Source of the DNA: Seison nebaliae
Taxonomy: Eukaryota > Rotifera > Pararotatoria > Seisonacea > Seisonidae
NCBI GenBank assembly: GCA_023231475.1
Contig: JALJEE010000026.1
Coordinates: forward strand, 1-41,708
Reading direction: 5' to 3'
DNA: 41,708 nt
Made by a program: the position numbers and the translations under genes. Below are positions 2,293 through 6,990 of this stretch, in pieces. Each line of letters starts with the position of its first letter. Positions within the stretch are counted from its first letter, which is position 1. The notes under the pieces were generated by a model. The model worked only from the letters and a program-made list of their open reading frames with translations, was not told the origin of the DNA and ran no database searches.

Positions 2293-3457
2293 TTACGACT
2301 GATTGTTATTCGTACCAATAATTGATGACGAAACGGTATCGTTCAATACTAAATCGCTTTCCTGTTTAATATTGTTCATCATATCGCCGTTATGAATCAT
2401 CATATCATCCCCAACATTAGTCACTGTGTTGACGGTTGAATTGATCATCGAAGAAGTTGTCAATGTTGAGGACATATTCGGTGATGATTTCATCTTCAAA
2501 TTGCCAGCAGTGGATGTTGGTGATGTGGATGAAGAAACAGGACATGGTATTTTAGTGGCAGTGGGAGGAGTTGTATTATTTAATTCTTCTTTCACATCAT
2601 TTCGATGTTGATAGACATACTCCTCATGTAATTCACTGATAAATTTGTTTACAACTAAATCCGATGCTCTTTTTGCTTCTTCGTCACTAATCTCCTCCAA
2701 TTCTGCTTTCAACTTCAAATCTTTCTTCGCCTTCGTTCTTTCGTTCGGATGCATCTGTGAAACATGATCTCGTCCATGATCGGGCAAATTTAATGATTTA
2801 TGGTGGAAAAATGTTACACAGATTCGAGTCGGTTGAAATCGATTGGGCGTTGGGACCGAAGTTACGGCATGTGTCTCCCATTTGGAACACTTGATTAGAA
2901 TGGAACCATGCGGTAAGGCTATTCCTAAACCACCTGTCTGCGCATCTGCTAATACGGGACGACTTTCAATATATTTCTCTTCGATTAATGATTCAGTTGC
3001 GGACGCCAAATCAGCAGCACTTCTCATCGATCCACGTTTCTGCGTTTGAGTTTTAAAAACGGTAATGTCAGGAATCTGTTTTTGTTGGAGGACATTCTGA
3101 GTTATCGGTTTCGCTTCAATCATCGGTAATGTCAAATGATTTGAATTATTCTTCTGACAAACATGTCTCATCATTGGATTATTTTGCATGTGCATATTTG
3201 ATGCATTGGATGAAGATGTTCGATTAGCAACCGTTCTCTTCCTTTTCACTTTCTTCTCATCGTTTATATGTTGATTATTATTCATTAGTTGTTGATGCAA
3301 TTTTTGGTTTTGTTGCACTTGTTGCAATGAATGTTGTGATGAATGATGTTGATGCATTTGTGAATGAATATTCGGTGGTAAATTATTTTGAGACATGTTC
3401 GATTGCTGATGTTGGGAAGAATGGATATGTTGTTGTTGTTGTTGTTGTTGTGAATGA

Positions 3458-3491
<34 letters not shown>

Positions 3492-6400
3492 GCTGCTGTT
3501 GATGATGAGAGAATTGCACCGGTGAATGTCGAGCATTCGCTACTTCTGATATAATTTGTGGTTCGGCACCAAGTGACTCCAAATATTTTTCTGGTCTTTT
3601 ACCTCTATTCGATGGCATCGATTGACAAGCATATGGTCCCAAATCTTTAACGGTCTTCTTCCTCGTCGTCTTCTTCGCCGATCCAGATCTTGAACGTTGT
3701 CCACTTTGCATTTGCTGTTGTTGATGTTGCTGCTGCTGCTGCTGTTGTTGATGTTGTTGTTGTTGATGATGTTGTTCATTCATCATTTGTTGTGGATGAT
3801 GTTGAGGATGATGTTGAGGATGTTGATTCATTTGTTGTTGACGTATTTGCATCAAATGATCTTGATGTTGTTGTTGTTGCATTTGTTGTGGTGTTATTGG
3901 AGAATTGAAATATTGATTAGTTGAATACATATTATCGAAACCATCCATCTGACTGACAACCTCATAATCCATAAAATTATCTTTATCTTCAATTTGAACA
4001 AGTTCATTCTTTGTCGTTGTTCCAATGGAGACTGAAGGAAAATTTTGTAAATGTGACATTATATTACTCTTTTGAGATCTCAAGTAATTGAAAGAATCTT
4101 CTTCATTAACATTATCATTACATTGGGGTGATTGGAATGCAGTTGACGTCACTTGATATTGTGACAATGTCGGATGTTGTTGTTGCTGTTGTTGCTGTTG
4201 TTGTTGTTGTTGATGATGTGGAAGTTGTGTTTGATGATGTTGTTGTTTTAATGTTCTAGGGAATAATGATCGATCATTATTTGTTGTTCCAGAGAAACCA
4301 TCATCGAAAATATCCAGTTTATTACCCAATTGTTGTTGTTGTTGCTGTTGTTGTTGTTGCTGATGATGAGGTGATGGAGTTTCTGTTATATTCAAACAAT
4401 CATATTGAGAATTACTATAATCTTCATCCGATGGAGTTGATGTAGGAGCTAATCGATTGATGGAAATAAATGATTTATTTTGAAATGAATCTTTCCCATA
4501 TCTCGGATTAATTTCATTTATCACATTATACGTCGAATATTGTTGTTGTTGTTGTTGAGTTGATTGTGGAGAGAATTGTGAACAAAATGATTCAATTTCA
4601 TAATCACTTTTTATTGGTCCATAATTTGACATAATTTTTTGTTGTTGTTGTTGCGATGCCGATTGTTGTTGCATATATGGTGACATTGCCTTACTATCAA
4701 CATCAATCATATCTTGTTTCGTTGTTAATTTAGATTTATTTCTAATAATACAATTATTTCCATTCGATGCCATATTGGAATATGATCCCATATTATCATG
4801 ATATATTCCTTGACCTACCGAATTTAATTGTGGTTGTTGTTGTTGTTGTATGTTTGGATTGTGTTGATTAATTGTTGATTGTGTTACATTTATTGGACGA
4901 TGATCATGTATTGGCGATTGTTGTGATTGATGTTGTGAATGTCCAGACATCATTGATATCGTCGGTTGTTGATGTTGAATATGATGTTGTTGTTGTTGAT
5001 GATGACTGTCTTGTGAATGATGTTGTTGATTAGGATGATGAGAAATATTCGACATTTGTGATGATTGTTGCGTATGATGTTGATGAGATTGCTGTTGTTG
5101 GTGTTGTTGTTGTGAATGGATCGATTGATGTTGAGAAAGATTATGAAGAGAAGATTGATTAACCGATTGTACTTGATATTGTTGAGCTTCTGCTTTTACT
5201 GAATGTCCATGTATTGACATATGATGATCATGCGGCATTAAATTCAGTGAATTGCCTTTCGAACATTTATTCGCTAACTTCTGTAATTTTTGTGAATATT
5301 CTTGACGTTCCGATGCTGTCATCTGAGATACTTTCTTCACCGAAACCAATGGTGTTTGTCTCAATCTCCAAATCATCGGAAACTTCGCCAATTTCTCCAC
5401 TCCATTCCTTATCAATGTCGAACAAACTTCCACTCGTCTTTTTCGTTTTCCTGGATCTGCCTTACATTTCTGTAATACAATCATTGCATCATCTTGAGGA
5501 AGTTGCATCGGTTCCAACGACCGTCCTTTATATGGTGCAGCTAAACCATCAGGACATAACGTATATTTTGGAAATGTATGAATTTGTTCTTTGACACCAA
5601 CACTCAACAATGGAGCTGCCAAACAACTTAACTCCTAAAAGATTGGACATTATTTTTTTATTTTCACATTTTAATTTCACATAAATACTAACGACTGTTG
5701 CACCGTCATTGAGATCATGTCTCTCTTTATGACTATGAGCACAATAATCGATTGATACCGTTACACCACAAAATGGTCTCTTCTCACTATTTCCCAGACG
5801 ACAAGCATTTGCTTCCGAATGTTGCGTCTAATAAAAAATTTCAAAATAAAAAATAACAAATTATTTAATAGTCAACGAACTTGATTTTCAAATGCTTGCG
5901 GTGTAGCTTTGGCGAAAACGTTCGATGTCAAATCACTTAATTCTGTCAATATATATTCCAATCCTTTCTCTAAATTTTGTAATTTATCCTTTTCAATACT
6001 AGCAGTCTATAAATTGGAATATATGTTATTACTTCACACATCAAACGAAACAAAAAAAACAAACTTCACATGGATCAGATAACCGGAATTTTTTCGGAGA
6101 TTTACTCCTTCCATATTTACAACCATTATAGAATTTACTCCAAGCGCAGCCGAACGAATAAGAAGCACCAGACGATAATGCTTCACTTCCTTGACAAGCA
6201 CAATTTCGACTATAAACAAGAGAAATAAATGAATTTATGTATAATTAGTGAAAATGAACTTGTCATTTGTCCCACATCGTCTTTCTGTTTCAATTCCATA
6301 ACGTGGTAAGACATCAGACATGTAATCATAGACTCTCGTTGCCGCCGTTTCCGTTAACGCATCCCAAACGACGACTGCCAATACGAACCACGTCATGAGA

Positions 6401-6911
6401 CATGTATGTGCTCGCCTCTGACATATGAGAACAAGATATTTCTCATTATCAGAAGTTCTCCTCAAAATCCATTTGGCAATTGGACAACCGTGAACGGATC
6501 TGCCTTCTTTACTGACCGGTTCCACTTTCTCCAATCGGAGAGCTTCTCTATCAGTTTCTGCATCGAATCGTTCGATTAATCTTTCGTGTAATTCTTCGAA
6601 TGTGGGAGCACATCCCAATTGGCCATATACCGCTTCGATGGCTGTCTTACCAGTTGACGCAGCTTTCTGTGTCACTTGACATGCTTCACATAATGCTGCC
6701 GATTCTTCCAATTCTTTTATATTATATTCTCGATATTTCTTATGACGAGTAAGAATTCTATCTCTTTGTAATTCATGTGATTGTTGTTGTTGATGATGTT
6801 GAGAATGATGATAATTATCATTCTCTCCAGATGATGTAATATCATTTATTGTTGTTGTTGTTGTTGAGGATATATCTCCATTTGATTGTTGTTGTTGTAA
6901 TGTTTGATGCG

Positions 6912-6943
<32 letters not shown>

Positions 6944-6990
6944 GTTACAACGACAACATTATTATTATCACCATTTGGAGTGTTATACAT
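2293..6990 (-). CDS. Tet: TET-family Fe(II)/2-oxoglutarate dioxygenase (five exons)
   Basis: The model joins, in coding order, 6990-6260, 6209-6065, 6006-5881, 5827-5693 and 5634-2293, giving 1492 residues; introns are 50-58 bp and every phase matches. TETs oxidise 5-methylcytosine in DNA, or in some animals modify RNA or 6mA. The N-terminus is poly-Asn/Gln. The Cys-rich domain (about 80-335) has GCPIAKWILRR, RRCGTNDN-RNCACQG and the SFGCAWSKFYNGCKYGRSK block typical of TET. The split double-stranded beta helix has its first half at about 340-410 and its second at about 1275-1340 (GGLGIALPHGSILIKCS; HAVTS; PNRFQPTRI). Between them lies an insert of nearly 900 residues, mostly Gln/His. The distal iron-ligand His1301 and 2OG-binding Arg1316 have the usual spacing of 15. 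The first motif is H367-K-E369 instead of HRD (see findings). No CXXC domain is encoded. The start is the ATG at 6990; an in-frame GTG six bases upstream is ignored. Confidence 0.93.
3429..3501. repeat. CAA/CAG trinucleotide tract coding poly-Gln in TET
   Basis: Two neighbouring TTG runs (CAA on the coding strand), at 3429-3450 and 3458-3501, encode poly-Gln in the insert of the TET catalytic domain. Similar shorter tracts occur near 3715-3775, 4172-4214 and 4330-4362. CAA dominates over CAG. Confidence 0.9.
6919..6942. repeat. ATT/AAT trinucleotide tract coding poly-Asn in TET
   Basis: A run of ATT triplets on the + strand reads as AAT (Asn) codons on the coding strand. It forms the poly-Asn stretch near the TET N-terminus. 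It is a likely site of length polymorphism. Confidence 0.9.

Follow-up and report, generated by a model that had tools for sequence, protein, structure and literature searches.

A variant TET homologue with a His-Lys-Glu iron motif in the rotifer Seison nebaliae

Introduction

Why animals without DNA methylation keep a TET gene is an open question. The locus analyzed here raises it in a particular form. It lies on the minus strand of a 41,708-nt stretch of DNA from the rotifer Seison nebaliae (assembly GCA_023231475.1, contig JALJEE010000026.1, positions 1 to 41,708; hereafter the window), and it encodes a TET protein in which the aspartate of the first iron motif is replaced by glutamate. Can such a protein still work as an oxidase, and on which substrate? 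An earlier reading of the locus, made from the letters alone (hereafter the sequence-only reading), had reported this replacement together with two altered base-recognition residues, and had proposed a changed substrate such as RNA or N6-methyladenine (6mA). The observation was confirmed in the present analysis, while the argument for a change of substrate mostly falls.

Identity and structure of the TET gene

The TET gene occupies positions 6990-2293 on the minus strand and consists of five exons, spliced by hand in a script, with a product of 1492 residues. The first 539 residues of the product matched the Pfam family Tet_JBP (E = 1.8e-17). When the product without its large insert was compared with the PDB, the only matches at E <= 0.001 were three human TET2 sequences, the best at 8.8e-83 in two matched stretches. 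In the whole assembly (36.0 Mb, 846 contigs), Tet_JBP was matched at this locus only, in two pieces (5630-5818, E = 4.2e-7, and 2797-3012, E = 7.7e-6), each below the curated cut-off and the first just under it. The features of the family were all found, namely the Tet_JBP domain, a Cys-rich region before it and an insert that splits the fold. Judged by these features, the gene is TET by descent and looks intact. We class the protein among variant homologues of TET and do not claim it to be a proven TET dioxygenase, because its iron triad is HxE instead of HxD, with both histidines retained.

The first iron motif is His367-Lys-Glu369 (5723..5731, codons CAT AAA GAG), at the position of TET2 H1382-x-D1384, and is followed by R370, H371 and D372. 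The second iron histidine, His1301 of the sequence 'WETH' (2869..2871; TET2 H1881), was computed to stand 15 codons before the 2-oxoglutarate (2OG)-binding Arg1316 (2824..2826, CGA; TET2 R1896), which is exactly the H1881-R1896 spacing. His1324 (2800..2802, CAT) corresponds to TET2 H1904. Asp372 (5714..5716, GAT) stands at the position of TET2 Asn1387 and NgTet1 Asp234, and Phe1322 (2806..2808, TTC) at that of TET2 Tyr1902 and NgTet1 Phe295 (PMC11040006, PMC7854593). The spliced protein bears out all the residues that the sequence-only reading had named; the coordinates that it gave for the HKE codons, 5722-5730, were one base off, the codons lying at 5731-5723.

All five exons are on the minus strand. 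Exon 1 (6260..6990), an open frame up to the donor GTTCAT, contains the start codon, an N/Q-rich leader and the N-terminal part of the Cys-rich region; in the PDB search its alignment with TET2 starts at the equivalent of YTHLG. Exon 2 (6065..6209), placed by phase and splice sites, belongs to the Cys-rich region and carries the CACQG and GCAWSKFYNGCKY motifs. Exons 3 (5881..6006) and 4 (5693..5827) were set by hand splicing, the latter reading GVT...DYCAHSHKERHDLNDGATV and containing most of the first Tet_JBP match. Exon 5 (2293..5634) encodes what remains of the catalytic fold, together with an insert, about 850 residues long and in good part Q/H-rich, the C-terminal half of the fold with the second Tet_JBP match, and the stop codon. 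Introns 1 to 4 start with GTTCAT, GTTTGT, GTTCGT and GTTAGT. By eye, a nearby RRM gene and the assembly's DNMT2-like gene were also seen to have donors of this GTT type (GTTNGT and alike, not the usual GTA or GTG).

The HKE codons sit inside exon 4, 30 bases upstream of its end, and are unaffected by the splicing of intron 4. Alternatives for this intron, with GTATTT or GTGAAA as the donor or with an acceptor further downstream, were examined by hand and rejected, as they fit the GTT-type donors of the gene and its neighbours more poorly. They would give back Val at the position of TET2 V1395, and none of them alters HKE.

Frequency of the substitutions

The substitutions were compared with 131 distinct homologous proteins, which were collected by protein searches and mapped on TET2 numbering; in one of these searches, scoring was confined to the 7989 candidates with most words in common. 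The column of position 1384 can be read in 123 of the 131 homologues, of which 122 have Asp and one has Glu. At position 1387 all 123 readable homologues have Asn and none has Asp; at position 1902 all 104 readable ones have Tyr and none has Phe, the column being absent in 27. The middle Lys of HKE is unremarkable (K in 87/123). The iron-ligand change is thus rare in the sampled TETs. The sole other Glu at 1384 was found in the TET of the beetle Dendroctonus ponderosae (P0005, DFCDHSHKEIHNMTDG), whose motif is also HKE. Where conservation reaches 99% or more (85 columns), HKE is the single departure of this protein (84/85 unchanged). In the beetle, then, Glu stands in a TET that is unchanged in all the other columns.

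In the same columns, the insect TETs P0007, P0038 and P0011 show no departure, and P0043 and P0049 show one, as does P0005; P0023 shows two, and the partial P0037 shows 22, of which 19 are gaps. No close relative of the S. nebaliae TET was present among the 131 homologues; their highest identity to it is 56%, reached by a single protein over 63 columns only. Among the matches listed in searches of the literature no HxE TET in print was found, which does not prove its absence.

Many of the residues checked are unchanged. These are the equivalents of R1261, T1372, H1382, T1393, H1416, H1881, R1896 and H1904, and also those of C1193, H1219, C1271, C1273, C1289, C1298 (these last four in the exon 2 region), C1358, H1380 and H1912. 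The list of zinc positions, and in part the zinc or 2OG roles of the kept residues, are those that we take TET2 to have. The fold had been called intact in the sequence-only reading. This holds for most of the fold-defining residues. S1898 is replaced by Cys, and V1395 by Glu. By eye, the upstream CxC of P0005 and P0008 reads CxxC in the S. nebaliae TET.

The altered residues and known enzymes

The N4 atom of 5-methylcytosine (5mC) is bonded by Asn1387 in TET2, by Asp234 in NgTet1 and by Asp350 in CMD1, and the stacking partner of the base is Tyr1902 in TET2 and a Phe in NgTet1, CMD1 and CcTet (PMC11040006, PMC7854593). Since both NgTet1 and CMD1 use Asp and Phe at these positions, Asp372 and Phe1322 form a known 5mC-reading pair, but one that is absent from the other animal TETs sampled. 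The two residues had been taken to point to a new substrate; the same residues read 5mC in these enzymes, and that argument is not supported. Moreover, the side chain at the 1387 position clashes with the methyl group of 6mA, while Gly, as in CcTet or the hTet2 mutant N1387G, admits it (PMC11040006). With Asp in this position, this speaks against the suggestion of 6mA as a substrate.

The supposition that HxE is compatible with activity fared better. In prolyl 4-hydroxylase, no residue other than Glu has so far been able to take the place of Asp414 with activity retained (PMC2767507). By analogy, Glu in the iron triad of the S. nebaliae TET would be compatible with activity.

Genes of DNA methylation

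The sequence-only reading had proposed that the genome be examined for DNMT genes. In the whole assembly, the DNMT family PF00145 was matched at one locus, in two pieces whose frames read as DNMT2. Against the PDB, the first piece matched DNMT2 structures best (7.4e-10), four of its six matches being of DNMT2 type and the other two having E = 0.34 and 0.77; the second piece matched DNMT2 only, and weakly (E = 0.034). DNMT1 and DNMT3 were not matched in this six-frame, exon-by-exon search of a possibly incomplete assembly.

Two MT-A70 genes were found, with the motifs DPPW and EPPL, and by these motifs we take them to be METTL3 and METTL14; METTL4 was not found, as these were the only two MT-A70 matches in the whole assembly. 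Both of the two MBD matches lie next to Pre-SET and SET domains, the SET hit at one locus, L009, being below the cut-off, and the loci are presumably SETDB1-like. SRA gave no match in the genome, nor in any control. The CXXC family likewise gave none in the genome; its sole matching control was B. subtilis, under the cut-off, and a tick CXXC query matched nothing anywhere. The UDG family was matched in 13 of 14 prokaryote controls and nowhere in the genome. COX1 was likewise searched for and gave no match. The observed/expected ratio of CpG was 1.14 for the window as a whole and between 0.99 and 1.60 for the TET gene and the fetched loci, and thus showed no depletion. The gene set and the CpG ratio fit an animal without CpG methylation, although they are not proof of it. 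As a point of reference, DNMT1 is present in the sarcoptiform and trombidiform mites examined in PMC8821070, so that its absence would be unexpected if the animal were such a mite.

Other features of the window

Frames resembling Glyco_hydro_18 (chitinase-like) lie near the TET gene (12523-13020, minus strand; E = 0.00034, below the curated cut-off), and by eye such frames were also seen near the DNMT2-like gene (L005). An open frame at 13653-13988 (minus) encodes repeated KR-bounded peptides (SFDAFSHSNMFDGLY and similar) and would, by the likeness that we assume, be an orcokinin/pedal-peptide-like neuropeptide precursor. An RRM gene (17287-17859, minus) and a G-patch gene (38854-39273, plus) presumably resemble RBM24/38 and RBM17, respectively. 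The single open frame of 1400 residues at 19374-23576 (minus) matched nothing in Pfam but cadherin, and that below the threshold (E = 0.0058), and had no match in NCBIfam. At 41185-41706 (plus) there is an endonuclease/exonuclease domain (PF03372, E = 1.5e-8), probably of a non-LTR retrotransposon that is cut by the end of the window.

Discussion

From these sequence comparisons we infer, with moderate confidence, that the S. nebaliae TET is a fast-evolving protein and a competent 5-methylpyrimidine oxidase, perhaps a slow one, on which constraint is relaxed. The product would still fold as a TET. The Fe (II) ion would be held by His367, Glu369 and His1301, with Glu369 as the presumed carboxylate ligand, and 2OG would be bound through Arg1316. 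The flipped base would be read by Asp372 at N4, by His1324 and by stacking on Phe1322, as reported for NgTet1. It is because of this NgTet1-like Asp/His/Phe reader that the protein would seem to be an oxidase of the 5mC type and not a 6mA enzyme. With no CpG-methylation writer found, the constraint on DNA oxidation would probably be relaxed, and the remaining substrate, if any, would probably be 5-methylcytosine in RNA (m5C), a DNMT2-like gene being present, or sporadic 5mC. A more far-reaching version, which we regard as rather unlikely, is that the pocket was rebuilt after the loss of CpG methylation, with a 2-His-1-Glu site and an NgTet1-like reader retuned to RNA m5C and partial oxidation, and that Dendroctonus, whose lineage would likewise be losing a DNMT, arrived at HKE in parallel.

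Several observations weigh against a competent oxidase. The S. nebaliae TET departs at 13 of the 85 near-invariant columns (12 substitutions and one gap), including 1384, 1387, 1902 and 1903. In a tree of the core region with 49 rows (47 of the 131 homologues, human and S. nebaliae), its branch, at 1.44 substitutions per site, is the longest. In view of the long branch and the 13 departures, the function could be eroding. Two further changes count here. S1898 is replaced by Cys, as in only 2 of 105 other homologues, both of springtails (P0054, P0055). V1395 is replaced by Glu, which is found in none of 124 other homologues (Gln in 6), and this residue would pack near 2OG, judging by its offset from L339 of CcTet (PMC11040006). 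Since the V1395 equivalent falls at the junction of exons 4 and 5, this Glu is splice-dependent. It also counts against this reading that the lack of DNMT1 and DNMT3 comes from the six-frame search of a possibly incomplete assembly described above. The tree placed the protein beside deuterostome TETs (support 76); we did not trust this placement and took it for a long-branch effect.

The chief rival to the oxidase is a mainly non-catalytic role. The protein could be a chromatin- or RNA-binding scaffold, whose iron site was freed by the loss of methylation, so that HKE, V1395E and the other changes would represent drift in an enzyme that is weak or dead. We consider this a real possibility. In Drosophila, where DNMT2 is the only DNMT (PMC4150289), flies with YRA in place of the HRD of TET are viable, and the function of this TET is described as largely independent of catalysis (PMC10735219). 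The long branch and the 13 departures agree with a scaffold. D. ponderosae is listed as one of five arthropods that lack DNMT1 or DNMT3 apart from the losses proposed there, and the authors found these cases hard to interpret (PMC8821070); two cases of HKE do not make a correlation with DNMT loss. The retained residues, on the other hand, speak against a scaffold: H1382, H1881, R1261, H1416, R1896 and the tested zinc positions are all kept, and the replacements at 1384, 1387 and 1902 are of a conservative kind. In addition, HxD is kept in six dipteran TETs (P0011, P0043, P0046, P0049, P0052 and P0068). Loss of methylation alone is therefore insufficient to bring the iron-ligand change.

The remaining explanations accept a change of activity or question the gene itself. 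If the enzyme were a product-specificity variant, Phe in place of Tyr1902 would make it stall at 5-hydroxymethylcytosine (5hmC) or 5-formylcytosine (5fC). The T1372A/Y1902F mutant of human TET2 and its mouse Tet3 counterpart do give mainly 5hmC and 5fC, with little or no 5-carboxylcytosine (PMC12830177; see also PMC8073381), and no UDG-family match was found in the genome. That mutant is a double one, however, and T1372 is retained here; CcTet naturally has Phe, and its F391Y variant showed activity without significant change (PMC11040006). We hold stalling to be improbable. A 6mA substrate in DNA appears very improbable. It could be invoked for the change of N1387, invariant in 123/123 others, and slow demethylation of 6mA by Drosophila TET was reported in earlier work cited in PMC10735219. 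In the data of that study itself, however, Drosophila TET gave no significant loss of 6mA; Asp372 is not the Gly that would admit this base, and the only two MT-A70 genes are METTL3 and METTL14 by motif, as noted above. Finally, D to E, N to D and Y to F are each possibly one base from the usual codon, as would be expected of an assembly error or a wrong gene model. The changes stand at three separate positions in two exons, with a clean flanking frame, consistent splice sites and one locus only, and we give such an error very little credence.

With a Glu-ligand TET in an apparently methylation-free animal and another in a beetle for which DNMT1 or DNMT3 is reported missing, it would be possible to test directly whether the catalytic site remains in use once the DNA substrate is lost. 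The changes D to E, N to D and Y to F also offer TET enzymology an active-site series.

Comparison with known systems

The S. nebaliae TET shares with the catalytic domain of human TET2 (PDB 4nm6, 5d9y) the Cys-rich region, the insert-split fold, both iron histidines, R1896, R1261, H1416, H1904 and T1372. It differs by E for D1384, D for N1387, F for Y1902 and C for S1898, and further by E for V1395, K for M1293, F for Y1294 and A for S1290. The D. ponderosae TET has HKE in common with it but keeps N1387 and Y1902; it also has a CXXC match of 26.2 bits, just under the cut-off of 26.5. Springtail TETs (Orchesella, P0054; Folsomia, P0055) share S1898C, S1290A, Y1294F and F1377Y, whereas they retain HxD, N1387 and Y1902 and are not grouped with S. 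nebaliae in the tree.

The iron motif of NgTet1 and CMD1 is HxD, and CMD1 uses vitamin C as its co-substrate. By their published descriptions, NgTet1 of Naegleria and CMD1 of Chlamydomonas have the Asp and Phe base readers in common with the S. nebaliae TET (PMC11040006, PMC7854593). Drosophila TET likewise occurs in a genome with DNMT2 as the only DNMT (PMC4150289), but it has an HRD motif, and its catalytic function is dispensable (PMC10735219).

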